42,562 nucleotides of DNA from Deltaproteobacteria bacterium (GTDB lineage: Bacteria > Desulfobacterota > DSM-4660 > Desulfatiglandales > HGW-15), in contig JAFDEE010000037.1 of the NCBI GenBank assembly GCA_019310525.1, positions 1 to 42,562 on the forward strand, read 5' to 3'. The translations under genes and the position numbers were made by a program. Position 1 is the stretch's first letter; each line of letters starts with the position of its first letter. Below, in pieces: positions 2,714 to 19,752 of this stretch. Below the pieces are notes generated by a model. The model worked only from the letters and a program-made list of their open reading frames with translations. It searched no databases and was not told the DNA's origin.

Positions 2714-4273
2714 ATGGCGAGGAACAAGGCACCCCTGAAAAGCATGGTGATAGTGGTTTCCCTGCTCATTGGGCTGGGATTCTGTCTCTCCCCGGCTTCA
2801 GCCCGGGCCGAAATCAATGAACTCCGAATCGGGATCGGGATCGATGCCGACACCCTGAATCCCCAGGAACAGACCACTTCCCTTTTCATGAACATCTGCT
2901 ACCTCATCCACGACTTCCTGTTCTACCAGGCGGCGGACGGGACCTTGCAGCCCAGGTTGGCGGAGAGTTACTCAGTATCGAAGGACGGTCTCACTTACAC
3001 CGTTCGTCTGCGCAAGGACGTGACATTCAGTGACGGGACCCCCTTTGATGCCAAGGCCATGAAACTGACCTTTGACCGTGCCTTGGACCCCAAGTTGAGA
3101 GTACCCCTGCGTTTCCTGATCGGCATGGTCAAGTCGGTCTCGATTGCGGACAAATATACCATCAAAATCCACCTCAAGTACCCCTATGCCCCCATGGCAG
3201 CCACCCTTTCGGCCCACGTTCTCCTTCCCATCTCTCCTGCGGCCATAAAAAAATACGGCCAGGACGTACGCCAGCATCCGGTCGGAGCCGGCCCTTACGT
3301 GCTGAAGGAATGGGTGAAAGGAGACAAAATAGTTCTGGAGCGAAACGAGCATTACTGGGGCAAGCGACCCACCGTGAAAAGACTGGTCTTCAAGGTCGTC
3401 CCCGAGACATCCACCCGGGAGGCCATGCTCAGGAGCGGCGAACTGGATATATGTTACAAGCCTTCCCCCGCCAATGTGGCGGCCCTCAAGGCCGATCCCG
3501 GCATCACGGTGGAGATGCCCTTGGACACCCGTACCATCTTCATGGGCATGAACTGCCAAAAGGGCCCGACCCGGAACAAGCTTGTACGCCAGGCTTTGAA
3601 TTATGCCGTGGACAAGAAGGCCATTGTAAAGAAAATTCTCTTCGACACCGGCGTGCCCATGGACGGACCCACCTCTCCCCTCCTCTTCGGTTATCACAAA
3701 ATGGCCCACCAGTACGATTACAACCCCGAAAAGGCTAAGGAACTCCTGAAGAAGGCCAACTTTGATTTCAATCAGACCCTCCACATGCGGACCCCCAACG
3801 GGCGTTACAACTTCGACAAACAGGTCTCCGAGGCCATCCAGGCCTATTTCCAGGCAATCGGCATCAAAACGGAACTCAGGACTTATGACTGGCCGACTTA
3901 CGTTGCCGGCCTGCTCAAGCCCATCGAACAAAGCGAACTGGAACTCTTTCTGTTGGGGTGGGGGCCCATGATCCTGGACGCTGATATGGCCCTTTACGGG
4001 CAATTCCATTCCAGTGTCAATCCTCCCAAGGGTCTCGGCTCATCTTTTTACACTAACGCCGAATTCGATGATCTGCTCGAGAAGACCAGGAGGGAACAAG
4101 ACCCGCAAAAACGGCTGGCCCTTTTCAAGAGGGCCTCTGAGATTGTTTGGGATGATTGCCCCTGGCTGTGGCTCCACGTGGAAAAATTCGTCATCGCTTA
4201 CAGAAGCGACCTGACCAATCTCCTGGTCACCAACACGGAGATGTTCTTCCCGACTTACATGAAGAAAAAGTAA
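2714..4273 (+). CDS. ABC transporter solute-binding protein, family 5 (peptide/nickel type)
   Basis: This 519-residue periplasmic binding protein opens with an N-terminal signal peptide (basic start, hydrophobic stretch at about residues 11-25, probable cleavage after the ASARA motif near residue 36). The mature part shows family-5 hallmarks: a LAESYSVSKDGLTYTVRLRK segment, DGTPFDAKAMKLTFDRAL, and GAGPYVLKEWVKGDKIVLERN. It should capture a peptide-like or other amphiphilic solute for an ABC importer. It has no permease or ATPase of its own; the nearest are in the minus-strand operon at 5739-12130, which has its own binding protein. It is cotranscribed with the amidohydrolase (27 bp gap, GAGGAGGAGG ribosome binding site). 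It may offer the same importer a second specificity; that is inference. Confidence 0.9.
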   Translation: MARNKAPLKSMVIVVSLLIGLGFCLSPASARAEINELRIGIGIDADTLNPQEQTTSLFMNICYLIHDFLFYQAADGTLQPRLAESYSVSKDGLTYTVRLRKDVTFSDGTPFDAKAMKLTFDRALDPKLRVPLRFLIGMVKSVSIADKYTIKIHLKYPYAPMAATLSAHVLLPISPAAIKKYGQDVRQHPVGAGPYVLKEWVKGDKIVLERNEHYWGKRPTVKRLVFKVVPETSTREAMLRSGELDICYKPSPANVAALKADPGITVEMPLDTRTIFMGMNCQKGPTRNKLVRQALNYAVDKKAIVKKILFDTGVPMDGPTSPLLFGYHKMAHQYDYNPEKAKELLKKANFDFNQTLHMRTPNGRYNFDKQVSEAIQAYFQAIGIKTELRTYDWPTYVAGLLKPIEQSELELFLLGWGPMILDADMALYGQFHSSVNPPKGLGSSFYTNAEFDDLLEKTRREQDPQKRLALFKRASEIVWDDCPWLWLHVEKFVIAYRSDLTNLLVTNTEMFFPTYMKKK

Positions 4274-7674: not shown

Positions 7675-7703
7675 CGCTCTGGACTCCTTGAAAGAGAAGG
7701 CCC

Positions 7704-8651
7704 TCAAACGAAAACCGCCTTGGGAAAGTAGAAGGAAACGATCCAGTTCGGCGCATCCACGATCTCGCTGATGCGTAAGTCGCCGCAGACGCTGGAGAGC
7801 ATGTAGGCCTCCTCAGGGGAGAGGTCATGTTCCCGGCTGAGCAAATCCACCATGCCGCTCACGGCCTCCCTGGCCGCTTCCATCAGATCCGGACCGATCC
7901 CCGTTGTTACCTCGTAGCCCTTTTCGTCAATGTGACGAGTCACCGGACCGGGAGTTGAAAAGCGGGGGTAAGGCAGGGACATCCCCTTTTCCACCTCCAA
8001 TCGAACCGTGACCTTCATTGGGCTTTCGATGGCCGTGCCGCAGACCTCACCGTCTCCCTGGGCCGCGTGGGCGTCTCCCATGGAGAAAAGGGCCCCGGGC
8101 ACCTCTACAGGAAGGTAGAGCACCGTACCTTCTCCAATGTCCCGGGTGTCCATGTTTCCGCCCACCCTTCGGGGATTCACGACACTGTGCTCACCCCTCT
8201 CACCGGGTGCCACCCCGATGGTTCCGGGAAAGGGTTTAAGGGGAACCCTGATCCCGGGCCGGAATTCCGCGGGCGCCAGGGTTTTAGGGTCATATTCCCA
8301 GATATGAAGGGCCGGGTTCTTGAAACGGTCGGCAAGCAACCCGAAGCCCGGGATAACCGCCGTCCATCCCCAACCCGAAGGGTCGAAGGAGAGGATGGTC
8401 ACCTTGAGGGCATCACCCGGTTGGGCCCCATCCACGAAGACGGGACCGGTTACAGGGTTGACCCTGGAAAAGTCCAGGGCGGCGACCTCCTCAAGGGTGG
8501 AACGGGCAGAGAGCTGCCCTCCCGAGGCGTCCACCGTCTCGATTTCCACCACGCTCCCGGGGGAAACCGTCAGGGCGGGGGAAAGGGAAGGGTTCCACCC
8601 AAAGTGGCTGCTCTCCTTATGAACCGTGTAATCCGGTTGAATGGAAGTCAT
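7704..8651 (-). CDS. Acetamidase/formamidase family protein (FmdA/AmdA-like)
   Basis: This 315-residue protein belongs to the FmdA/AmdA family, beta-rich cytoplasmic hydrolases that release ammonia and a short acid from simple amides. Family-like segments include the N-terminal HFGWNPSLSPALTVSPGSVV, the FVDGAQPGDALKVTILSF stretch, VNPRRVGGNMDTRDIGEGT and FSMGDAHAAQGDGEV; the last holds the conserved aspartate and histidine thought to bind metal. Its length matches the family. It has a GGAAAGG ribosome binding site and sits between the binding protein and ATPase genes of the ABC importer, so the imported solute may be its substrate. That placement is observed; the substrate link is inference. 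Confidence 0.88.
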   Translation of the reverse strand: MTSIQPDYTVHKESSHFGWNPSLSPALTVSPGSVVEIETVDASGGQLSARSTLEEVAALDFSRVNPVTGPVFVDGAQPGDALKVTILSFDPSGWGWTAVIPGFGLLADRFKNPALHIWEYDPKTLAPAEFRPGIRVPLKPFPGTIGVAPGERGEHSVVNPRRVGGNMDTRDIGEGTVLYLPVEVPGALFSMGDAHAAQGDGEVCGTAIESPMKVTVRLEVEKGMSLPYPRFSTPGPVTRHIDEKGYEVTTGIGPDLMEAAREAVSGMVDLLSREHDLSPEEAYMLSSVCGDLRISEIVDAPNWIVSFYFPKAVFV

Positions 8652-8672
8652 AACCTTTCCTTTCTCTTTACA

Positions 8673-10301
8673 CTACTGGACATCCTTGGCGTAAACGTAC
8701 TCGTAGTTAACCGGAATGTGGACGGGATCCACGAAGATGGCGTCGGGTCCTCCCAGGCGCCTGGCCCGCATGGTAAACCGCTGCTCATTGAAGATGGGGA
8801 CCCAGGGTGCGTCATCCATGATCTCGATGAAGATGGACCTCCACAGTTCCTCCCTCTCTGCGGCCCTGGAGGGATCGCTCATGGCATCGGCCTTGGCAGC
8901 CTTGGCGTCCAGTTCCTTGTTGCAGTACCAGGACCAGTTCCAGCCGCCCTTCACAGCCCCGCCGCAACCCAGGATGGGTCCGTAGAAATTGGAGGGGTCC
9001 GGGAAATCGGCGATCCAGGCCATGCCCCCGGACCAAATCATGGGAGCCTGGTCGGGCTCACCGCCCGCGGCGATGACCGTGGACTGGGCCAGGGTCTTGA
9101 TTTCGGCCTTGATTCCGATCTCCGCCAAGTCTCTCTGAATGGCTTGGGCGATTCGGGGATTGGGATCCGTGTTGTTGGCGTAAAGTTCGGTCGTGAAACC
9201 GTTGGGATATCCGGCCTCGGCCAGGAGTTCCTTGGCTTTCTTGGGATCATAGGGATATCCCTTGTAGTTCTTGTCATAACCGGGCATGGCCGGGGGAAGG
9301 GGCTGGTTGGCGGGCACGGCCCGGTTGTTGATGATCTGGCAGATGCGCTTCTTGTTGATGGCCATGTTGACGGCCCTGCGGACCTTGACGTTGTCAAAAG
9401 GTTTCATGCGGACGTTCATGGCGATATAACCGGTGTGGAGCTGCCCACCCTCGACAATCATGCCCTTGTTTTTTGGATCCTTCATGACCTGGAGAAATCG
9501 GGCCGGGGGAATTCCGTCGCCGAGGATATCCACTTCCCCGCGCTGAAGTCTGAGGAGCGCCACGGTGGGTTCCTGTCCAACTTCAAAGACGATCTCGTCC
9601 AATCTCGGCAGGCCCGGTTTGTAATAATAGGGGTTACGGACAAAGACGACCCTTTGCCCGAGCTTCCATTCTTTCATTTTGAATGCGCCGGTGCCGACGG
9701 GGTTTTTGCCGAAGTCCATACCGTACTTCTCCACCTCTTCCTTGGGCACGGCAAAGGCGAAGTTGATGGCCATCACGTGGAGAAAGGTCGCATCGGGTTG
9801 GATCAGTTCGAATTGAACCGTGTAGGGATCCAGTACCGTGATCCCCGAGAGGTGTTCCGTTTTCCCGGCCACCATGTCATCATAACCCTTGATGCTCCAG
9901 AAAAAACCCTGCCCCGGGCTCTGGGTCTTGGGATTCACGGCCCGCTCAATGGAATACTTGATATCCTCTGCGGTCAATTTCCGACCGTTATGGAATTTTA
10001 CGTCCTTTCTGAGGTGGAAGGTATAGACCTTGCCATCCGGGGAGATCGTGAAATCCTTTGCAAGGTCCGGCTCAAGGATATAGGTGCCGGGCTTGTAATC
10101 CATAAGACCGTTGAAGAGGCTCTTGATCATGGACCAGTTTTGCCAATCATAGCCGATGGCCGGGTCCAGGGTGCTGATGTCGTCCTTGTAGGTGACCACC
10201 ATCTTGCCACCCTGTTTGATCTCCGCGGCGACGCCTTGGCCTAAGACTGCCAGCAAAACCGAGGCGGCCAGCAATGGTATCCAAATCCATCTCCTTTTCA
10301 T
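8673..10301 (-). CDS. ABC transporter solute-binding protein, family 5
   Basis: This 542-residue periplasmic binding protein belongs to the importer encoded around it. It starts with a clear signal peptide (basic MKRRW, hydrophobic core to about residue 22, probable cleavage after GVAA near 26). Family-5 features are the LAKDFTISPDGKVYTFHLRK segment, FHNGRKLTAEDIKYSIERAV and GTGAFKMKEWKLGQRVVFVR. It is unlike the plus-strand binding protein at 2714-4273 in most of its sequence, so the two are separate specificities rather than a recent duplication. The start is supported by GAGGAGGGAAG. It lies after the permease genes and before the amidase gene in the same operon. Confidence 0.93.
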   Translation of the reverse strand: MKRRWIWIPLLAASVLLAVLGQGVAAEIKQGGKMVVTYKDDISTLDPAIGYDWQNWSMIKSLFNGLMDYKPGTYILEPDLAKDFTISPDGKVYTFHLRKDVKFHNGRKLTAEDIKYSIERAVNPKTQSPGQGFFWSIKGYDDMVAGKTEHLSGITVLDPYTVQFELIQPDATFLHVMAINFAFAVPKEEVEKYGMDFGKNPVGTGAFKMKEWKLGQRVVFVRNPYYYKPGLPRLDEIVFEVGQEPTVALLRLQRGEVDILGDGIPPARFLQVMKDPKNKGMIVEGGQLHTGYIAMNVRMKPFDNVKVRRAVNMAINKKRICQIINNRAVPANQPLPPAMPGYDKNYKGYPYDPKKAKELLAEAGYPNGFTTELYANNTDPNPRIAQAIQRDLAEIGIKAEIKTLAQSTVIAAGGEPDQAPMIWSGGMAWIADFPDPSNFYGPILGCGGAVKGGWNWSWYCNKELDAKAAKADAMSDPSRAAEREELWRSIFIEIMDDAPWVPIFNEQRFTMRARRLGGPDAIFVDPVHIPVNYEYVYAKDVQ

Positions 10302-10358
10302 TTCTTCCCTCCTCTGTTGTTTTAGGTTTTCACCAATAGGGCATCCTCCATCCGGTCG

Positions 10359-11279
10359 TTATCGAAGATATACACGGGGATCGATGAAAGGGATCACCAG
10401 GTCCGCGAGAAGATTCCCGAGGACGATCCCTATCGCCGCCACCAGCGTAACCCCCATGATGACCGGGATATCCACCATCTGAATCGCCTGCCACGCCAGT
10501 TGCCCGATGCCGGGCCACCCGTAGACCGATTCCACCACCACGGCCCCTGCCATGAAGATCCCGATATCCAGGCCTACCATGGCGATAACAGGCAGGACGG
10601 CGTTCCGGAGAGCATGGACGATCACGACCTTTCGCTCCCCCAGTCCCTTGGCCCGTGCCGTGCGGATGTAGTCCTGCCTCAGGACGTCCACCATGCTGGA
10701 TCTCATCATCCGGCTGTACCAGCCCCCGCCGGAGATCCCCAGGGTCAGGGCCGGCAGGACGAGGTGGTTGAGGGAACCATAGCCTCCCATCGGGAATATC
10801 GGGAAAATATGGGAAAAGAGGTAGAGAAGAAGAAGTCCGAGGACGAACTGAGGGATCGATACACCCGCGAAGGATAGGGCCATGATCCACTGGTCCGCGG
10901 GTCTGCCTCTTCGGGTTGCTGAAAAGATCCCCGCCGGGAGGCCGATGAGAAGTTCGAAAAAGATGGTTCCGCCCATTAGCAGGAGCGTCGCGGGTAGACG
11001 GCTCAGGATCAATTCACTTACCTGGGTCTTCTGCTTGTAGGAGCGGCCCAGATCCCCCTGGGCCAGGCGGCTGAGGTATTTGATGTACTGGACGGGCAAG
11101 GGCTTGTCGAGACCCAGCTCCTTGCGGATCGATTCGACCGTGGCCTGGGTGGCGCTCCGGCCGGCGATCATGCGTACGGGATCGGCGGGCATGAGAAATG
11201 AGAGACAGAAGGTGATAAGGGTCACCCCGAGAAGGATGAAAACGGATTGGGCCAGTCTCTTACCAAGAAAAACCAGCAT
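10359..11279 (-). CDS. Peptide-type ABC transporter permease (DppB-like)
   Basis: This 306-residue inner-membrane permease has about six hydrophobic segments, beginning FLGKRLAQSVFILLGVTLITF, the usual DppB/OppB opening. The EAA-type loop that docks the ATPase is visible near YIRTARAKGLGERKVVIVHA. Its start codon shares one base with the stop of the preceding permease gene (TAATG), so the two are translationally coupled. It forms the channel with the DppC-like protein. Confidence 0.94.
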   Translation of the reverse strand: MLVFLGKRLAQSVFILLGVTLITFCLSFLMPADPVRMIAGRSATQATVESIRKELGLDKPLPVQYIKYLSRLAQGDLGRSYKQKTQVSELILSRLPATLLLMGGTIFFELLIGLPAGIFSATRRGRPADQWIMALSFAGVSIPQFVLGLLLLYLFSHIFPIFPMGGYGSLNHLVLPALTLGISGGGWYSRMMRSSMVDVLRQDYIRTARAKGLGERKVVIVHALRNAVLPVIAMVGLDIGIFMAGAVVVESVYGWPGIGQLAWQAIQMVDIPVIMGVTLVAAIGIVLGNLLADLVIPFIDPRVYLR

Positions 11280-12130
11280 TATTCACGCCCCCTTTGCGTC
11301 GGGTCCAGGATGTCCCTCAGGGCGTCCCCCACGAGGTTAAAAGAGAGGGAAAGGAGCATGATGGCTGCCCCCGGGAAAAATACGAGCCATGGAGCATCCA
11401 GGAAATAGGACTGGCTCTCATAAATTATTCCTCCCCAGGAGGGCGTGGGCGGCCTGACACCTACCCCCAGGAAGGACAAGGTCGCTTCCAGAAGAACCGT
11501 GGTGGCGATTCCCAGGGTGCCCCAGACGAGCAAGGTCGGCCAGAGATGTGGAACAATATGGACGAAGAGGATTCTGGGCCAGGCCGCACCAATGGAGCGG
11601 ACGGCCTCGATGTATTCCTGGGCCGAAAGGGCCACGGTCTGGCTGTAAATCACCCGGGCGATCTGGACCCAGTTCACCAGGGCGATCACCAGGGCGACGA
11701 TCCATAGGCTTGGTTTGAAGATTGCGGCCAGGGCAATGGCCAGGAGCAGGGCGGGAAAGGCCATCATGAGATCCGTGAAACGCATGATGACCGTGCCCAG
11801 CCATCCCCGGACATAACCGGCTACTATGCCCAGAAAGGCCCCTATGAAAACCGCGGCCCCATTCGCTGCAATCCCGATGAGCAAGGATGTCCGAGCCCCG
11901 TAAAGCAACCTCGAAAACAGCCCTCTCCCCAAAAGATCGGTACCGAGCCAGAATTCCGAATTGGGAGGAAGGGGCGCCCCTTCGGGAGTCAGCCCTTCGA
12001 AATATTGCTCGTCCGGAGGATGCGGCGCAAGGGAAGGGGCAAAGATCGCCGCAAAGGAAAAAACCAGGATGGTGAAAAGACCGAAAAGGGCGAGCTTATT
12101 TCCGAAAAATCGCTTAAGGGCGTAATTCAT
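11279..12130 (-). CDS. Peptide-type ABC transporter permease (DppC-like), first gene of the operon
   Basis: This 283-residue permease has the DppC-type N-terminus (FFGNKLALFGLFTILVF), a periplasmic region with FWLGTDLLGRGLFSRLLYGA, and the cytoplasmic EAA-type loop YIEAVRSIGAAWPRILFVH. Six hydrophobic segments are expected. It opens the seven-gene minus-strand operon. No Shine-Dalgarno precedes the ATG; instead a -35/-10 pair ends 6 bases upstream, so a leaderless transcript is possible. Confidence 0.93.
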   Translation of the reverse strand: MNYALKRFFGNKLALFGLFTILVFSFAAIFAPSLAPHPPDEQYFEGLTPEGAPLPPNSEFWLGTDLLGRGLFSRLLYGARTSLLIGIAANGAAVFIGAFLGIVAGYVRGWLGTVIMRFTDLMMAFPALLLAIALAAIFKPSLWIVALVIALVNWVQIARVIYSQTVALSAQEYIEAVRSIGAAWPRILFVHIVPHLWPTLLVWGTLGIATTVLLEATLSFLGVGVRPPTPSWGGIIYESQSYFLDAPWLVFFPGAAIMLLSLSFNLVGDALRDILDPTQRGRE

Positions 12131-12131
12131 A

Positions 12132-12164
12132 GTCTAATTATCAGACAATATATAATAAAATCAA
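12132..12164 (-). promoter_or_regulatory. Candidate leaderless promoter with overlapping dyad for the ABC operon
   Basis: On the minus strand TTGATT (12159-12164) and GATAAT (12137-12142) are separated by 16 bp, and the ATG at 12130 begins 7 bases past the -10 box. A dyad GTCT-N7-AGAC (12132-12146) covers the -10 box and could be a repressor site of the GntR/FadR style. No Shine-Dalgarno is seen. This is a pattern match only. Confidence 0.45.
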
Positions 12165-12470
12165 TATTTCATTTCCCTGTTTGTTGAATGGGACATTACC
12201 TGCAACGGGGCGTCTTTTTAAGAAGTTCCTCCCTTTGAAAAATTCAAAAAGAGTTCCTTTTCAAGATCGCCACCGAGCCTAGATTTTTTGGAAAAAGGTA
12301 GGGGCGGTAATAATCCAGGCCGAAAACGAACCCTAGCGTAAATGTCTCCCGCTTTAACAGGCCGTTAATACAAAGAGAGTTTAATAAGGCAAGTTTCCGT
12401 GTATCCAGTCTGTATCCCAAGGGGAATATAGGGAAATCCATAATCACTGTCAAGGAGAAAGGAGGGGGTT
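12165..12470. other. Intergenic region between the dehalogenase homologue and the ABC operon
   Basis: No convincing gene was found. A 69-codon minus-strand frame (12244-12453) has no family resemblance and lacks a ribosome binding site. The stretch 12232-12268 resembles a decayed left end of the repeat family seen at 23052 (CCTTTGAAAAA followed by TTCAAGATC). No intrinsic terminator is visible for the upstream gene. Confidence 0.4.
12425..12453 (-). promoter_or_regulatory. Candidate sigma-70 promoter reading toward the ABC operon
   Basis: TTGACA (12448-12453) and TATATT (12425-12430) on the minus strand are spaced by exactly 17 bp. A transcript from here would have a leader of about 290 nt before the DppC-like gene, so it may act as a second, distal promoter for that operon. 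It lies directly after the stop of the dehalogenase homologue. Confidence 0.5.
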
Positions 12471-13925
12471 TCAGCCCCGCAGGCCGTTCTTCACCAAGCC
12501 GTAAGCCTCTTTCCTGGCCTCCTTACCTTTCGGATATTCGAGCCACTTGGGTACCGGTTTGGGCCTCCACACCTTACCGTAGAGGAAATTATCGATGGCT
12601 GGAAACACCTTTCGAGCCACAGGGGACCTGGCGACAAACCAGCGGACCATTTTGTGGAGAAACGTGTTGGGGCGGCTGAACGGGCAGATGGCCATGCAGA
12701 TGGAGCAGTCCGTTCCCACCTTGGACCAATACTCAAAACAGGTGTCTTCGTTGAGCTTCCACTTCAACGCCCCCCTGTGGACCGTCTTCTCTTCCATGGG
12801 AATGGAACTGGAGGGACATGACTCCGCACATTTCTTGCATCGCTTACAAAACTCATCGGCGCCGATGGAAATGGGCTTGTCCGGCACCAGGGGCATGTCA
12901 GTAAGGGTGGCGAAAATGCGGACCCTGGCCCCGAATTTGGGAGCCATCAGATACCCGAGGCGGCCCACTTCCCCCAGACCTGCATCCACCGCCAACGGGG
13001 GAAGGGCGATGTCATATCGGCGGGTGTTCTGTGCGATTCCCCTGTAGCCCATATGGGCGAACCACCTGGCTAAAAGGGTGCTAAGATACGCCCCCCTGGA
13101 ATACCCCCGGGCGCTCTCGGCCACGGTAGGGGTATGGGGTGCGCCGTATACATGGTCGGAATCCATCTCCGTAAGCATCACCACCGCAAAAGGGGGAAGG
13201 GCCGCCGGGTCGATCTCCTTCCCCCAATCCTCCCACCGGTCGTAAAAGATCTCCCCCCGATGGGAGTAAACCCAGTTTGGATTGACCTTGCAAATCCCCA
13301 CCATGTCGGCCCCGATATGGAGGGCATACTCTTTAACGATCTGAGTTGCTCTCTCCGGCGATATCTTGGCGGGCGGTACGCCGGGTTCCGGTTCAGCTAC
13401 GGCATAGGGTCCCAGGAAATGGGGCATATCAAAGGCCGCCTCCATCATGGATACGTTGGGCCGGTATCCTCCGTCGATGCCGCCGGGTTCTCCCAGGAGA
13501 CCCTTTTCCCTGCGCTTGGCGTCCGCCTCTTCTTTTTCGGGATGCATGGCATAGTACTTCCTGTAATACTCGGTCCCGGGAGGCACGCTTCTTACCCGCG
13601 CAAATGGGATGTCCCGCTCGTCGGGACGTACGGGCTCGGATACGAGGTGACCATCTGCACCCTTAAGGGCCTTGGGATCGGGCCTCCCCGGAATAAGAAG
13701 GATCCCTCCGAATACCGCCCCCATCCCAAACCCCAGGGCGATAATGATCCGAAGCCCCGGGACCCAAATAATGAGACCGGCCAGAACCAGGGAAACAAGG
13801 GCCAGGCCGGCCCCTACCTTGGGGGCGCGGGGCTCCCTTTCCCGTATGGATTCGTAAGTGAAATACAGGGCCGAGACGAAAAAGACGAAATCGGCCACCA
13901 GAAGCCCTGCCGTGAGGGTATTCAT
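12471..13925 (-). CDS. Membrane-anchored reductive dehalogenase homologue (RdhA family)
   Basis: This 484-residue protein matches the cobamide- and Fe-S-dependent reductive dehalogenase family, which removes halogens reductively from organic compounds. The N-terminus has three hydrophobic helices (about residues 5-25, 36-56, 58-78) in place of a twin-arginine signal. The catalytic part contains SARGYSRGAYLSTLLARWF (Y275 is a candidate for the proton-donating tyrosine), then AGLGEVGRLGYLMAPKFGAR. The two ferredoxin motifs are CKRCKKCAESCP (C360, C363, C366, C370) and C396-x10-CSICMAICP (C407, C410, C414). GGAG eight bases upstream sets the ATG at 13925. It lies 32 bp after dctM and looks like the last gene of that operon. 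No separate rdhB anchor gene is seen, consistent with self-anchoring. Epoxyqueuosine reductase is a relative but lacks the membrane helices. Substrate and halogen specificity are unknown. Confidence 0.85.
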   Translation of the reverse strand: MNTLTAGLLVADFVFFVSALYFTYESIREREPRAPKVGAGLALVSLVLAGLIIWVPGLRIIIALGFGMGAVFGGILLIPGRPDPKALKGADGHLVSEPVRPDERDIPFARVRSVPPGTEYYRKYYAMHPEKEEADAKRREKGLLGEPGGIDGGYRPNVSMMEAAFDMPHFLGPYAVAEPEPGVPPAKISPERATQIVKEYALHIGADMVGICKVNPNWVYSHRGEIFYDRWEDWGKEIDPAALPPFAVVMLTEMDSDHVYGAPHTPTVAESARGYSRGAYLSTLLARWFAHMGYRGIAQNTRRYDIALPPLAVDAGLGEVGRLGYLMAPKFGARVRIFATLTDMPLVPDKPISIGADEFCKRCKKCAESCPSSSIPMEEKTVHRGALKWKLNEDTCFEYWSKVGTDCSICMAICPFSRPNTFLHKMVRWFVARSPVARKVFPAIDNFLYGKVWRPKPVPKWLEYPKGKEARKEAYGLVKNGLRG

Positions 13926-13957
13926 AGGCAAATCTCCATTCTTTCTTTATTCACAGG

Positions 13958-15259
13958 CTACATCATCCGATTAGGCAGAAAGAGCACGATCTGGGGAAAT
14001 GCAGTCAAAAGGATGATGCAGATGATCATGGCAATCCAGAAAGGCACGATTCCCCGGAAGATGGTATACATGGGGATATCCTTGGCAACGCCGCTCAAAA
14101 CGAACACGTTTACGCCCACCGGCGGGGTGATCAGGCTCATCTCCATGGTCAGTGTGATGATAACCCCGAACCAGATGGGATCAAAACCCAGTCTCACCAC
14201 GATGGGATAGACGATGGGGACCGCCAGGACCATGATGGAAAGGCCCTCCATAAAACATCCCAGCACCATGAAACCGCAAATAATGGCTGAGATAACCACG
14301 TAGCGCCCCACCCCTATGTTTACGATCCAGCCCGCCAGTTGGTCGGGGATCTGGCTGAGGGTGACAAAATACTGGAATATCATTGCCCCGATCAGGATCC
14401 CAAAAATGAAGGCCGTGGAATGGGCCGTGTCCTTCAATGCATCCAGGAAATTGCGCCAGGTGAGTCTTCGCTTGAGGATGGTTACCACAAAGGCCCCGAA
14501 GGCGCCTGCGCCGGCCGCCTCCGTCGGGGTGAACCATCCCGTATAGAGCCCTCCGATTACCAGGACAAACAGGGCCAAGAGGCTCCAGGTGGACCGGAGG
14601 GAAGCGACTTTTTCCTTCATTTTAAACTTCGGACCCGCTGCGCCGATCGCGGGGTTGATTTTCGTGGCCACCCAGATAGTGCCCATGAAAATCAGGGCCA
14701 GGCAGATGCCCGGGATCATGCCTGCTATGAAAAGCCTGGCGATACTCTGCTCTGTGAGGATGCCGTAAAGGATAAGGACCGAACTCGGCGGGATCAGGAT
14801 GCCGAGGGTCCCCCCGGCCGCAATGCATCCTGTGGCCAGGGTATCGGCGTAGTTGAGCTTTTTCATCTCGGGCAGGGCGATGGCCCCGAACATGGCGGCA
14901 GTCGCCAGGGAGGATCCGGAAATAGCGGCAAAACAGGCGCAGGCCCCTACCGTGGCCATGGCAAGACCGCCCGGGAGGAAACCGATCCACCGGTAAAGCA
15001 TATTATAGATCTCTGTACCCATTCCCGATTGGTGGGCGAACTGTCCCATGAGCAAGAAAAGAGGGATAACGCTCAGGGTATAATCGGCCGTGGTCTTGAT
15101 GGGATCTATCCCCAGCACCCCGATTGCCGATTCGAAAGAATTGAGGGCAATGAAACCCAAGAAACCCACCAGGGCCATGGCGAAACCGATCTGCATGCGC
15201 ATGGCCAGGAACAGGAAAAGGAGTAAGATACCCAGGATACCGATCGTAATGGGACTCAT
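13958..15259 (-). CDS. dctM: TRAP transporter large membrane subunit (DctM)
   Basis: This 433-residue protein is the large integral-membrane subunit of a tripartite ATP-independent periplasmic transporter, which moves organic acids using a sodium or proton gradient. Hydrophobic segments run throughout (about eleven to twelve). Family landmarks include the N-terminal LLFLFLAMRMQIGFAMALVG, the AAISGSSLATAAMFGAIALP and GTLGILIPPSSVLILYGIL segments, and the C-terminal SLITPPVGVNVFVLSG. The start overlaps the end of dctQ by four bases (ATGA). It is followed closely by the dehalogenase homologue. Confidence 0.95.
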   Translation of the reverse strand: MSPITIGILGILLLFLFLAMRMQIGFAMALVGFLGFIALNSFESAIGVLGIDPIKTTADYTLSVIPLFLLMGQFAHQSGMGTEIYNMLYRWIGFLPGGLAMATVGACACFAAISGSSLATAAMFGAIALPEMKKLNYADTLATGCIAAGGTLGILIPPSSVLILYGILTEQSIARLFIAGMIPGICLALIFMGTIWVATKINPAIGAAGPKFKMKEKVASLRSTWSLLALFVLVIGGLYTGWFTPTEAAGAGAFGAFVVTILKRRLTWRNFLDALKDTAHSTAFIFGILIGAMIFQYFVTLSQIPDQLAGWIVNIGVGRYVVISAIICGFMVLGCFMEGLSIMVLAVPIVYPIVVRLGFDPIWFGVIITLTMEMSLITPPVGVNVFVLSGVAKDIPMYTIFRGIVPFWIAMIICIILLTAFPQIVLFLPNRMM

Positions 15260-15765
15260 GATTCGACTACCTCATGTAAGGCCGCCAACGCCTTGGCCAG
15301 GAGGACCAGGGCGAGCAGCCCGCAACCGACCACCGCCACATATACAAAAGGATACACCGGAAGTGCGAGGTCGAGGGTCACCTCACCCCACTCCCGCATG
15401 TTGTCCGCATGGCGGTATATGGCCCAGGTCATCAGGGAAAAAAGAACAAAACAGATGAATTGCGTCACAATATCAAAAATGGACTGGACCCGCGGGCTGA
15501 ACTGCTTGAGAATCAGATCCACCTTGATATGCCCGTCGTGGACCTGGCATTCCGCAAGGGAGCAGAAGACCACCATGATCATCATCATCTCGGTAAGTTC
15601 CACCGAGCCGAGAACGGACCAGGATGTGAACTTACGTAGGAAGACGTCCGTTACCGTGATCATCATCATGATAAAGAGAAGCAGCCAGGTGATACGGTCC
15701 AGGTACTTGGCGAGAGGAAACAGGATTTTCTCCAGGATCCCTTTTTTATCACTAGATGTTTTCAT
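15256..15765 (-). CDS. dctQ: TRAP transporter small membrane subunit (DctQ)
   Basis: This protein of about 169 residues is the small four-helix subunit of the TRAP transporter. Helices are visible in ITWLLLFIMMMITVTDVFLR, VELTEMMMIMVVFCSLAECQ, IVTQFICFVLFSLMTWAIYR and PVYPFVYVAVVGCGLLALVL. The ATG at 15765 is preferred because AAGGGG lies about nine bases upstream; the open frame extends 36 bases further but with no extra conserved sequence. It overlaps dctM by four bases. Confidence 0.92.
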   Translation of the reverse strand: MKTSSDKKGILEKILFPLAKYLDRITWLLLFIMMMITVTDVFLRKFTSWSVLGSVELTEMMMIMVVFCSLAECQVHDGHIKVDLILKQFSPRVQSIFDIVTQFICFVLFSLMTWAIYRHADNMREWGEVTLDLALPVYPFVYVAVVGCGLLALVLLAKALAALHEVVES

Positions 15766-15856
15766 CTTGAATAACCCCTTGTTTAAAGACCGGGCCGGCA
15801 TCGCCCGGCAGGGGCGAGCCGACCCGGAGACGGACCTCTGGGGTGAAAGGAGGGTC

Positions 15857-16882
15857 TTACTGGTTCGCCTTGGCGGCGGCCAGGGTGGCCTCCAGGATCT
15901 CCTTCGCGGGGATTCCCTTCTTGGATTTTTCCCTGACCCAGTTGTCCCAAATACCCTTGAGGGCCTCTCTCATCTTGGCCTTCTCGGCCTCCGGGAGCTT
16001 GTGGAACTGGATCCCCTTGGCCTTGCCCGCCTCGATGTTCTCGGCGTCTTCTTCGTCAAAGGCAGCGGCCGCCTTGATACCGAAATCCCTGTTGGCTACC
16101 TGATCAATGGCCTTCTTGGCGAAGTCCGGAAGGCTGTTCCACTTCCGCTTATTCATCAAGATGCACATCAGGGCGCCGTTATAGTTGATCTCAGTGATAT
16201 GTTTGATAACATCGATGAGTTTGTGGCTCAAAAGGGCAGCATAAGGGGTGACTGCACCGTCGACCACACCCTTCTGCAAGGATATTGAGAGCTCTGAGAT
16301 GGGCATGCCGATGGGATTGGCCCCCAGCAACTTGAGGCCTGCGGTCTCGGTAGCGCTGGCGGAGCGGATCTTCATGCCCTTGAAATCGTCCATCTTGGTG
16401 ACCGCCTTCCTCACGGTGTGCAACTGGCTCAAGGGTGCTGAGAGGAACCACAACACCTTGAACTGTTTGTAATCCTCTGCAAGGTAAGAATCATAGATGT
16501 CGTAAACCGTCTTGGTCACATGGACGGCGTTGTTGAAAATAAAGGGCAATTCAAGGACGCTGCTTCTCTTGAAACGGCCTGGGATGTACTCGGGCAGGAC
16601 GAAACCGATGTCCGTGATTCCCGTTGTAATGGCATCGACCATGGTCTTGGGGTTGGCCAGGGTCGCCCCGGGGTAGATCTTGATCACCACCTTGCCGTTC
16701 GTAAGCCGCTTCACTTCATCGGCAAAGGGCTTAAAGGCCTTCCGGTGCTGAACGTGCATGGTGGGAACAAAGTGGGCCAGTTTCAGTTCTATGGTCTTGG
16801 CCGCCGCCGGAGTCGCCATGATCCCCGAAAACAGGACACACGCAAAGACCAAAGCCATTCCCACTAAAATAACCTTCTTCAT
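15857..16882 (-). CDS. dctP: TRAP transporter periplasmic solute-binding subunit (DctP)
   Basis: This 341-residue protein is the soluble receptor of the TRAP system. A signal peptide with hydrophobic core at about residues 4-22 ends near TPAAA (about 28). The mature protein shows the DctP pattern: IELKLAHFVPTMHVQHRKAF at the start, MKIRSASATETAGLKLLGAN with the conserved arginine that binds the ligand carboxylate, and LSISLQKGVVDGAVTPYAAL. The family mostly binds organic acids, which fits import of a carboxylated substrate. The start has GGAGG seven bases upstream. It is the first gene after the -24/-12 promoter and would be the most abundant product of the operon. Confidence 0.95.
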   Translation of the reverse strand: MKKVILVGMALVFACVLFSGIMATPAAAKTIELKLAHFVPTMHVQHRKAFKPFADEVKRLTNGKVVIKIYPGATLANPKTMVDAITTGITDIGFVLPEYIPGRFKRSSVLELPFIFNNAVHVTKTVYDIYDSYLAEDYKQFKVLWFLSAPLSQLHTVRKAVTKMDDFKGMKIRSASATETAGLKLLGANPIGMPISELSISLQKGVVDGAVTPYAALLSHKLIDVIKHITEINYNGALMCILMNKRKWNSLPDFAKKAIDQVANRDFGIKAAAAFDEEDAENIEAGKAKGIQFHKLPEAEKAKMREALKGIWDNWVREKSKKGIPAKEILEATLAAAKANQ

Positions 16883-17146
16883 ACGATACCTCCTTCTTCC
16901 AGGGGCCCGGCCCCCGATATGAGAGTTAAAGATGAAAAACGGACTCCATCGTCCGCATCACCCACATCCCAGGGGAAACATACAAACCGTTTAATCGTCA
17001 ATGTTCCTGATTATGTATCTCATTTTTGCCTTCCCATGGCGGCGAGAGGAGGACGGTTATCCATATAGATAACTTAAGGAATTTTCCGATCAGATTCAAA
17101 GGCAATAAACGTACCCCTTTCCCCCCAATTTTAAATTGAAATAAAT
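16883..17146. other. Long 5' leader of the TRAP operon
   Basis: The -24/-12 promoter at 17147-17164 implies a leader of about 255 nt before dctP. No gene, riboswitch or strong hairpin was recognised in it. Confidence 0.4.
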
Positions 17147-17164
17147 GAGCAATTCACGTGCCAA
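17147..17164 (-). promoter_or_regulatory. Sigma-54 (-24/-12) promoter for dctPQM and the dehalogenase homologue
   Basis: The minus strand reads TTGGCACGTGAATTGCTC, an exact TGGCAC-N5-TTGCT match to the RpoN consensus, with the -24 box at 17158-17163 and the -12 box ending at 17148. It points at dctP and lies 130 bp from the start of a divergent sigma-54 activator gene, the usual arrangement of activator and target. Transcription should begin near 17138. Confidence 0.87.
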
Positions 17165-17232
17165 ATACACGACAAAAAAAACCCTATGATTTCAAAATGT
17201 TTTACAAAAACCGGTTTCCCTGAAAACCCCAA

Positions 17233-17270
17233 AATATTGGTGACAATAAAATATTGTTGCCCGACAACAA
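17233..17270. promoter_or_regulatory. Candidate activator binding sites (UAS)
   Basis: Two direct repeats beginning AATATTG(G/T)TG lie at 17233 and 17250; the second forms a perfect dyad TTGTTG-CCCGA-CAACAA (17254-17270). They are about 70-110 bp upstream of the -24 box, the normal distance for sigma-54 enhancer sites, and overlap the -35 region proposed for the activator's own gene, which would allow autoregulation. Confidence 0.5.
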
Positions 17271-17285
17271 AAAATTGACTATCAT
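17257..17285 (+). promoter_or_regulatory. Candidate promoter for the sigma-54 activator gene
   Basis: TTGCCC (17257-17262) and TATCAT (17280-17285) are 17 bp apart, and the ATG at 17294 lies nine bases past the -10 box. With no Shine-Dalgarno in front of that ATG, the messenger may be leaderless or nearly so. The -35 box falls inside the dyad at 17254-17270. Confidence 0.4.
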
Positions 17286-17293
17286 TTCTTTCC

Positions 17294-18943
17294 ATGAAAC
17301 TGAAGCCCAACTATGCACCTGAATTCGAATCCATGAGGGACCTCCTCCTGGACATGTCCCAGGAGAGGGATGTAAACGTGCTCCTCAACATGATCGTAAC
17401 CCGGCTGGCCGCTCGGCCCCATGTCTTAATGGCGCGGATCTGGCTGGTGGAGGATGGAGACCGCTGTGATTCCTGTGCCATGAGGAGCCAATGCGAAGAC
17501 CGCGGGAAATGCCTCCATCTGGCGGCCAGTGCCGGAGAGCCCGAAGCCGAGGAGTTGCTCGACTGGAAGCGGCTCCCTTTGGGGGCGGGTATATTGGGGC
17601 ACATTGCAAACATGAGGGGCTGTTGGAGGAAAGACGATATAACGGTTGATTGCAGCCGTGTTGAGCAACAGGAATGGGCTCAGCGCCTCGGGATCAAGTA
17701 CATAGTGGGGAAACCTCTCCTTCACAAAGGGGAAATTCTCGGAATATTAGGGCTCTTCCTCCTTATTCCCCCGGTTCGGGAAGGCCCCATCTGGTTGCGG
17801 ATGATCGCCAACCACGCGGCCATCGCCGTGGCCAATGCGCGGGCCTTCGAGGAGATAGAACGTCTTAAGAGGGGGCTCGAACTGGAAAACGCCTACCTCA
17901 GGAAAGAACTCAACAAGATCCAGGCCTTCGGAGATATCATAGGAAAGAGCCCTGCCCTTCTTAACGTCCTTGAACAAATCGAACTGGTCGCCCCCACAGA
18001 TGCCAGCGTGTTGATTCTAGGCGAATCAGGGACGGGCAAGGAACTGGTCGCTCGGGAGATTCACCGGAGAAGCCTCCGCCGGGAACGGCCGATGATCAAG
18101 GTGAACTGCGCCACCATTCCAAGGGGCCTTTATGAAAGTGAGTTTTTCGGGCATGTGAAAGGGGCCTTTACCGGCGCCCTGAAAGACCGGGCCGGCCGGT
18201 TCCAGGCCGCCGACGGCGGCACCCTGTTTCTGGACGAGGTGGGAGAGATCCCTTGGGACCTCCAAAGCAAGCTCCTTCGCGTTCTGCAGGAGGGCCGCTA
18301 TGAGCGGATCGGGGAAGAGGTGACCCGGGAGGTGGACGTCCGTATCATATCGGCCACCAATAGGGATCTAAAAAAAGAGATCAGGGAGGGCCGTTTCCGC
18401 CAAGACCTTTTCTACCGTCTAAACGTTTTCCCCATCGAGGTGGTACCCCTCCGCAACCGAAAGGAAGACATCCCCCTCCTCGCTGCCCATTTCCTGAAAC
18501 GGGTATGCGAAAAAATGAACCGTCCCCTGCCGATCCTTTCCAAGGAAAATCTCGACCAATTGCAACACTACTGGTGGCCGGGGAATGTCCGCGAACTCCA
18601 GAACGTCATAGAAAGGGCCGTAATCACCTCCAGATCCGGCACCCTCAGCTTCGACCTTCCAAGGGAATCCCGGAGGCCCGTTCCCCTCCGCCGGGACCAT
18701 GGAGCCGGAGAAAAGGAACCAATGGAGGTCATTTCCGAGGAGGCAATCCAGAAACTGATCCGGGAAAACACCCTTTGCGCCCTGAAAAAAACCGGGTGGA
18801 AGGTTTACGGACCGGACGGGGCGGCCGCTCTGCTGGGTGTGAAGCCCACAACCCTTTCGGCACGGATCAAAAAAATGGGCCTGCAAAGGCCCACATCCCA
18901 CTCCTACGAGACACCTTTTCCTCCCAGGCGCCGGTATGCCTAA
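17294..18943 (+). CDS. Sigma-54-dependent transcriptional activator, GAF-AAA+-Fis
   Basis: This 549-residue NtrC/NifA-type regulator has an N-terminal GAF sensor (about 15-185) with a four-cysteine insertion (C58, C61, C67, C73; spacing C-x2-C-x5-C-x5-C) that could bind a metal or Fe-S cluster or sense redox. The AAA+ domain (about 212-450) has Walker A GESGTGKE (243-250), the sigma-54-contacting GAFTGA loop (290-295) and Walker B LFLDE (311-315). The C-terminus carries a Fis-type helix-turn-helix ([20 protein letters not shown]). It is transcribed away from the TRAP/dehalogenase operon, whose -24/-12 promoter is in the shared intergenic space, so it is very likely that operon's activator. 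The inducer, possibly the imported substrate, is unknown. The start has no clear Shine-Dalgarno; an internal ATG at residue 14 is the alternative. Confidence 0.92.
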
Positions 18944-18954
18944 AAGAGAAACCT

Positions 18955-19752
18955 TTATTCCCGGAACCCGTCAGGAACGGGTTCCCCGTCCACATAAACC
19001 CTCCCTTCGTCGTCCAGGGCAAAACGGCCCCGGGCGACCATCTCCAGGGTTCTTGGGAAAATCCTCCAGTCACCTTTTTCCTTTAGGAGGCGCTGATGCT
19101 CCCCGGCCACTTCGAGCAATCGTTTCCTGTCCTTTTCAAGCACTTCGAGGGGAGCGGGAAGCTCCACCTTCAGGGGATTGGAAACCATCAAGAGGGGCCC
19201 CGTGTCCACACCCTCATCGGTCCAGATGGTGGAGGATCGAAGATGGGTCTCCCCGGCCAGGATAGCATCCAGGACAGCATGTTCCCCGACGTATTTCCTT
19301 TTCCCCTGGGGAGTCAAAATGGAGAGATCAGCAGGGTGCACGTTGATACACCGCCCTAAGGTAATGTAACTCATGTAACCCCCGAGGGCCACGACATCGA
19401 TCTCAAAGCAATGGATGAGTTTCCGGGCGACCTCGTCGTAGGCCTTCCGGGCCGCCAGACCTTCCGGTGTCGAGACGGTTCTCTTGAGGCCCCGCCGGGA
19501 ATGAAATGCCCTGATATCGTAACTGAAATAGGGAATACCTTGCGCCCGGGCGATTTCCTCCCCCCTGGAGGTTCCGTCCGAACGGTCGCTGAAGATGAAG
19601 ACCACCTCATAAGGAGGGCGGCCTTCCTCATCCTCCAAACGCTTCTGGGCCTCAAGGAGTTTGACGATATTGGTGCCCGAGCCTGACATGAAGGCCGCAA
19701 CCCTCATCGGGCGGCCTGCCTTCTCAGGATCAAAGATGGGCTTGGGGGTCAT
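18955..19752 (-). CDS. PurN-like formyltransferase family protein
   Basis: This 265-residue protein resembles phosphoribosylglycinamide formyltransferase, which uses 10-formyltetrahydrofolate in purine synthesis. The N-terminal MSGSGTNIVKLLEA segment is the phosphate-binding loop of the family. The catalytic triad positions appear as N137, H139 and D183 (INVHPADLS and GVDTGPLL). It is longer than typical PurN (about 200-215 residues), with an extra segment around 83-105 and a sequence KRKYVGEHAVLDAI where PurN normally has a PGLH loop. A true purine role is possible, but a different formyl or acyl acceptor cannot be excluded. It converges on the activator gene (11 bp between) and follows the phosphoglycerate kinase gene on the same strand. 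A strong AGGCGAGG precedes the ATG. Confidence 0.78.
   Translation of the reverse strand: MTPKPIFDPEKAGRPMRVAAFMSGSGTNIVKLLEAQKRLEDEEGRPPYEVVFIFSDRSDGTSRGEEIARAQGIPYFSYDIRAFHSRRGLKRTVSTPEGLAARKAYDEVARKLIHCFEIDVVALGGYMSYITLGRCINVHPADLSILTPQGKRKYVGEHAVLDAILAGETHLRSSTIWTDEGVDTGPLLMVSNPLKVELPAPLEVLEKDRKRLLEVAGEHQRLLKEKGDWRIFPRTLEMVARGRFALDDEGRVYVDGEPVPDGFRE

Follow-up and report, generated by a model that had tools for sequence, protein, structure and literature searches.

The stretch analysed here (the window; 42,562 nucleotides of a Deltaproteobacteria genome) carries a reverse-strand dctP-dctQ-dctM-rdhA gene series (Table 1). The adjacent P, Q and M genes, a –24/–12 promoter and an activator gene are all present, giving the layout of a sigma-54-regulated TRAP operon. 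The promoter, TGGCACGTGAATTGC, lies between dctP and the divergent activator and is the only zero-mismatch –24/–12 match in the 42.5-kb window. Elsewhere in this genome, a 59%-identical homologue of the activator adjoins a soluble rdhA (L022), where a sigma-54-like site is correctly oriented and weaker than that of the window; such sites ahead of other rdhA operons are weaker or absent. On the strand of rdhA, an acetamidase/formamidase gene and a family-5 (Opp-type) ABC importer occupy 7704–12130, beginning 341 bp downstream of rdhA, and a further family-5 binding protein is encoded at 2714–4273 on the plus strand.

Table 1. Features of the rdhA locus, in window coordinates.
Feature	Position	Strand	Basis
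TMH-type rdhA, 484 aa, without TAT signal, with built-in membrane anchor	12471..13925	–	Profile, homologue and model evidence
TM helix 1, putative counterpart of PceB TMH2	13842..13919	–	AlphaFold2; profile match to 8q4h_C
EXE motif E29-R-E31 in the Lys/Arg-rich TM1–TM2 loop (YESIREREPRAPK)	13833..13841	–	22 homologues; charges
TM helix 2, putative counterpart of PceB TMH3	13764..13826	–	AlphaFold2; profile match
TM helix 3, followed by the catalytic domain on the EXE-loop side of the membrane	13701..13760	–	AlphaFold2
Y275, equivalent to SmPceA Y246 (proton donor)	13101..13103	–	Invariance in the TMH clade; alignment to 4uqu
R336, equivalent to SmPceA R305; Lys in NpRdhA-type enzymes	12918..12920	–	Alignment
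FeS1 motif, C360xxC363xxC366xxxC370P	12816..12848	–	Sequence; homologue alignment
FeS2 motif, C396...C407xxC410xxxC414P	12684..12740	–	Sequence; homologue alignment
C-terminal helices with H424, D445 and Y449	12579..12656	–	AlphaFold2; alignment; PMC10624902
dctM, TRAP large membrane subunit, 32 bp upstream of rdhA	13958..15259	–	Pfam DctM, 332 bits
dctQ, TRAP small membrane subunit	15256..15801	–	Position; tblastn to Q genes of relatives
dctP, TRAP solute-binding protein of an rdhA-linked subfamily	15857..16882	–	Pfam DctP, 190.7 bits
Sigma-54 –24/–12 promoter, into dctP-dctQ-dctM-rdhA	17149..17163	–	Zero mismatches
Inverted repeat TTGTTGtcgggCAACAA ~100 bp 5' of the promoter, candidate site for activator binding	17254..17270	–	Putative role
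Divergent sigma-54-dependent activator, weak GAF match	17294..18943	+	Pfam

A self-anchored RdhA of the hybrid class

The rdhA gene starts with ATG, preceded by a GGAG Shine-Dalgarno sequence ~8 nt 5' of the start. The original prediction described its product as a self-anchored reductive dehalogenase with three N-terminal hydrophobic helices, no twin-arginine (Tat) signal, no accompanying rdhB, both ferredoxin cysteine motifs and the RdhA core, and each of these features holds up. Hydropathy of the aligned N-termini marks three transmembrane segments, and an AlphaFold2 model built from an alignment of 22 homologues (mean pLDDT 88.1, pTM 0.87) places membrane helices at residues 3–28, 34–54 and 56–75. 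Inspection of the same aligned N-termini found no RR.F motif in the leader, and a Tat leader hidden by a misplaced start was ruled out because just 7 further codons are open 5' of the ATG (491 codons in total). An overlooked rdhB was also ruled out: from 8000 to 19500, neither strand has a small open reading frame with two or more transmembrane segments. All eight FeS cysteines are intact, and the protein scores 191.9 bits against the TIGR02486 (RDH) model, above its cut-off of 160.35. The chain stops after the FeS domain, with no NADPH-fed reductase domain.

Across 22 TMH-type homologues (30–72% identity), the architecture and the eight cysteines are invariant, so the architecture is not a product of chance. 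Within the EXE loop, E29 and A34 are invariant and E31 and R33 nearly so, and both Y275 and R336 are found in all 30 proteins of the TMH clade described below.

This protein belongs to a class published in 2019, and so the type itself is already known. Atashgahi 2019 (PMC6797604) described 'hybrid putative RDases' in ~70 genomes, SAG2, NaphS2 and Dethiosulfatarculus among them, with three N-terminal TMHs, an EXE motif and neither TAT signal nor rdhB. The window protein matches these hybrids in size (450–500 aa), in the three TMHs with EXE between TM1 and TM2, in the missing TAT signal and rdhB, in both FeS motifs and in forming a clade of its own apart from other RDases. In that work TMHMM gave mixed C-terminus orientations, about half of them exoplasmic, and orientation was left open; the words 'TRAP' and 'transporter' do not occur in its text. 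Whereas orientation was open and TRAP linkage unmentioned there, both are tested here by comparison. What we add is evidence for a flipped anchor, the sigma-54/TRAP operon linkage, and a genome full of TAT-less rdhA genes.

Family membership is clear at several levels. PF13486 by itself is sub-threshold (18.4 against a cut-off of 24.3), and the nearest solved structures by sequence are SmPceA (E 3e-43), NpRdhA (1e-39), DhPceA (3.5e-34) and QueG (1.6e-7). Fold comparison of the AlphaFold2 model ranks NpRdhA (4ras, Z 36.1), DhPceA (8q4h_A, 34.9) and SmPceA (~33) ahead of QueG (~15) and CblC (~7); VIA-align rows for transmembrane residues 1–60 contained only unrelated helical hairpins. A tree was computed from 80 catalytic cores, with QueG serving as outgroup. 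In it, one clade (SH-aLRT 96) holds 30 TMH-RdhAs apart from QueG, and a group with branch support 94 additionally takes in NpRdhA/BhbA-type proteins and their soluble TAT-less relatives. The sole non-TMH row within the TMH clade is L095 (G171), whose N-terminus is hidden by a 100-N scaffold gap. An apparent ETF-alpha/RdhA fusion at that locus (1075–1174), which if real would have directly shown cytoplasmic operation, is an artefact, as it spans this gap of exactly 100 N.

Because QueG and RDases share a cobalamin-binding core fold with two [4Fe-4S] clusters, and because TIGR00276 gives a weak match (38.7 bits), we considered whether the protein is a divergent QueG (epoxyqueuosine reductase), the outcome that the original prediction had named as its refutation. 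We reject this assignment, whose probability is negligible. The QueG score falls far under the cut-off of 200, the fold Z is 15 against 33–36 for RDases, and the tree puts the protein on a distinct branch outside QueG. QueG rows have His at the position of Y275 and no Arg at that of R336, and a true, separate QueG is encoded in this genome on C24. The genome also has a CobS gene. The second outcome named there, loss of cobamide-pocket residues, is likewise not what we find: judged from the alignment, catalytic and FeS residues are kept. Judged by its sequence, the 484-aa protein is thus an RdhA-family member outside QueG, with cobamide binding and dehalogenation predicted.

Probable anchor correspondence and predicted membrane orientation

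In the structure of PceA2B2 (PMC10624902), the EXE residues sit in the PceB TMH2–TMH3 loop on the outer face of the membrane, and menaquinone is held beside them, between the PceA C-terminal helices and PceB TMH2/3; the authors predict that hybrid fusions resemble PceA2B2. The likeness between the window RdhA and this Desulfitobacterium hafniense complex (8q4h) covers the catalytic fold, the Tyr/Arg pair, the two FeS clusters, the H/D/Y residues of the quinol pocket and the EXE hairpin. The window protein differs in having its anchor fused to the enzyme, an extra TM3 linker and no Tat signal; with respect to canonical respiratory RdhAB, it has neither the Tat leader nor a separate rdhB.

When the N-domains of 17 hybrids were built into a profile and compared with every PDB sequence, just one match came up at E ≤ 10: chain 8q4h_C, which is PceB, with the alignment running across the EXE loop (SSFSEREYQA). 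The match is weak by its E-value (0.26) and notable for being unique and in register, which is suggestive of a correspondence between hybrid TM1-EXE-TM2 and the PceB TMH2-EXE-TMH3 hairpin. Searching curated families with RdhB sequences showed that neither Pfam nor NCBIfam has a model for this protein, and a Sulfurospirillum RdhB used as phmmer query against the PDB gave no useful match. For comparison we used four RdhB sequences found beside Tat-RdhAs, plus the PDB chain.

The distribution of charge differs between the two groups. In 22/22 hybrids, the side of the EXE loop and catalytic domain is the one rich in Lys and Arg, averaging 6.2 of these residues, with 1.1 on the opposite side. RdhBs are reversed in 4/4 cases, with 0–1 Lys/Arg in the EXE loop and 4–9 on the opposite side. 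By the positive-inside rule, this bias predicts that the hybrid EXE loop and catalytic domain are cytoplasmic, inside rather than outside as in PceA2B2, and the whole anchor–catalytic module appears flipped relative to RdhB. Tat proteins receive their cobamide and FeS clusters before export, and an inward orientation therefore agrees with the missing Tat signal. The original prediction that the catalytic domain could face the cytoplasm is well supported at the sequence level by the uniform charge bias, the reversed RdhBs, the absence of Tat and the importer linkage described below, and we regard this predicted topology as very probable.

An outside-facing catalytic domain would make the protein a Sec/YidC-inserted RdhA–RdhB fusion, working as the terminal reductase of organohalide respiration. 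Such an arrangement would fit the exoplasmic C-termini that TMHMM assigns to about half of the published hybrids (PMC6797604), and it draws on the EXE loop and catalytic domain sharing one side, as they do in PceA2B2. The charge bias opposes it in every one of the 22 hybrids, and the importer linkage would serve no purpose, making it very improbable. External loading of cobamide and FeS clusters without Tat would be needed as well, for which we know of no precedent.

NpRdhA and BhbA, which form a neighbouring clade in the tree, are also TAT-less; they are cytoplasmic, as is predicted here. Those enzymes lack an anchor and have an NADPH-fed reductase at the C-terminus; the window RdhA is the reverse. 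Their active-site Lys is Arg at position 336 here, and their quinol-pocket His and Tyr are lost. Directly upstream of BhbA (Comamonas pBHB), a cytoplasmic enzyme for brominated hydroxybenzoate, lies the gene for a tripartite-transporter binding protein.

Importers beside rdhA genes

The 3.8-Mb genome holds 11 genes above the RDH-model cut-off, three of the TMH type and eight soluble, and the Tat motif occurs in 0/11. These rdhA genes lie on contigs C7, C22, C26, C28, C35, C37, C43, C48, C54 and C91 of the genome (G000; loci including L015–L023), and a relative (G012) has 26 RdhA-family matches. Seven of the 11 have an importer of the TRAP, TAXI, Opp or Liv type as neighbour: those of the window, L015, L017, L019 and L021, and both in L016. 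AMP-binding CoA ligases are encoded near rdhA at L021 (Pfam) and L022 (by sequence). Two further designs were seen in relatives. L054/L104 (G004:C240) encodes a 524-aa RdhA with a third kind of N-terminus, a Sec-like signal plus a second hydrophobic segment and no Tat motif, and at L137 (G005:C272, 5520–7292) an RdhA-like gene is followed by an 88-aa RdhB-like anchor (VASYKEMETRAAWMG), with TRAP genes near.

The TRAP link that the original prediction drew for this locus is supported well past it, by TRAP–rdhA neighbourhoods that recur in relatives. The closest relatives of the window dctM frequently adjoin rdhA. Same-strand TRAP genes lie directly beside a TMH-rdhA in the window and at L003, L063, L065, L071, L072 and L073; at L021, the TMH-rdhA is preceded by a TAXI-TRAP two genes away. 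Gene order varies, with TRAP preceding rdhA in the window, L003 and L063 and following it at L065, L071, L072 and L073, which suggests that such clusters were assembled repeatedly. TRAP is absent nearby at many TMH-rdhA loci (L023, L057, L060, L070 and others), and many loci end at contig ends.

Seen from the side of the solute-binding protein, the link is stronger. Across 22 genomes, six of the nine other members of the window DctP subfamily adjoin an rdhA, TMH or soluble (G040:C227, G028:C338, G005:C374, G000:C35, G003:C33 and G012:C563). TRAP systems abound in these genomes (4–51 DctM each), and among the matches listed for the ~400 other DctM genes rdhA neighbours are few (at least about six). 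The linkage of the subfamily to rdhA has a Fisher p of 1e-8, a value that overstates independence because the linked cases share ancestry and come from such TRAP-rich genomes. A literature search on reductive dehalogenases plus TRAP transporters found a matching paper that handles the two genes separately.

Individual loci record other states of the cluster. A decayed copy at L061 (G057:C49, ~7700–9330) retains dctP, dctM and rdhA fragments at 66–80% identity. At L131 (G011:C46) and L065 (G005:C374), TRAP genes are flanked by common neighbours, a 526-aa gene starting MRVLVSDPLSDVGVKIFEE and an IspE-like gene; two rdhA genes stand beside this shared TRAP only in G005, pointing to rdhA gain or loss around a constant TRAP.

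Electron donor, substrate and proposed function

H424, D445 and Y449 are the counterparts of DhPceA H495, D515 and Y520, proposed proton-relay and quinol-pocket residues (PMC10624902). The trio is kept in 28 of the 28–29 TMH-clade rows covering the position and likewise in 4/4 Tat enzymes, and its His and Tyr are lost in the NADPH-fed BhbA-type enzymes. Since most soluble TAT-less RdhAs keep all three residues without any anchor, their presence is consistent with quinol coupling and no proof of it. The original prediction held that a cytoplasmic orientation would alter how the enzyme obtains electrons. With both the H/D/Y residues and a PceB-like EXE hairpin retained, the hybrid RdhA may instead take the same donor as PceA, menaquinol, from the other membrane side. 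We put the odds of menaquinol being the donor at roughly even. If quinol is used, then by analogy to PceA2B2 its oxidation and dehalogenation would occur on one side, leaving the enzyme electroneutral.

A cytoplasm-facing dehalogenase might instead be fed by ferredoxin, flavodoxin or aldehyde:ferredoxin oxidoreductase, with the anchor only localising it beside the importer. Low-potential donors are thermodynamically suited to cob(I) formation, the anchorless TAT-less paralogues have the same core, and genes for aldehyde ferredoxin oxidoreductase stand next to rdhA at L057 (Pfam) and seemingly at L017 and L018 (by sequence), a possible donor link. We consider soluble donors unlikely: the EXE hairpin is kept across very divergent TMH proteins, a correspondence to the quinol hairpin of PceB would be superfluous for a plain anchor, and the window operon encodes no redox partner.

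The computed results cover the protein's architecture and family, its conserved residues, the charge bias, the layout of the operon with its promoter match, and the recurring linkage to importers. From these together we infer a topology, cofactor content, substrate, dehalogenation reaction, electron donor and mode of regulation: an inward-facing, membrane-anchored reductive dehalogenase acting on a TRAP-imported halogenated carboxylate (probability about 0.6). In this mechanism, the activator at 17294–18943 would turn on the sigma-54-controlled dctP-dctQ-dctM-rdhA operon, with rdhA as its last gene, upon some signal, and the TRAP system would import a halogenated, probably aromatic, carboxylate. 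TM1–3 would hold the RdhA domain at the inner membrane face. The halogen would be reductively removed at the cobamide via Y275 and R336, electrons would reach the cobamide through two [4Fe-4S] clusters, and the dehalogenated acid would enter catabolism. Menaquinol oxidised on the cytoplasmic side would be the likeliest donor, because the anchor appears to correspond to TMH2-EXE-TMH3 of RdhB, flipped.

That the 484-aa RdhA is an actual dehalogenase is a prediction in which we have good confidence. The same fold could serve a cobamide/FeS reductase whose imported substrate carries no halogen and which, for instance, removes another leaving group. The abundance of RdhA-like genes, 11 here and 26 in a relative, and the CoA ligases and TRAP, Opp and Liv importers nearby suggest a broad scavenging chemistry, and the literature examined holds no assayed TMH-RdhA. 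The Y275/R336 pair is nevertheless identical to that of PceA, and the close solved relatives are all dehalogenases, which leaves a non-halogenated substrate rather improbable.

The in/out orientation of hybrid RDases, and whether they serve respiration or catabolism, has been a question since 2019. The reversed charges, the correspondence to the PceB hairpin and the importer-linked sigma-54 operon offer a concrete, testable answer, and dctPQM is a named transporter whose ligand would disclose the substrate of RdhA. More generally, and tentatively, at somewhat under even odds, TMH-RdhAs may be inside-out menaquinol:organohalide oxidoreductases, RdhB–RdhA fusions flipped so that quinol is oxidised and halogen removed on the cytoplasmic face alike, and paired with dedicated TRAP importers in import-and-dehalogenate modules that were copied many times over in uncultured anaerobes. 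If the inward-facing reading is true, searches based on Tat signals or rdhB would miss import-then-dehalogenate systems, and part of the organohalide turnover in these organisms would run through uptake and then dehalogenation inside the cell.
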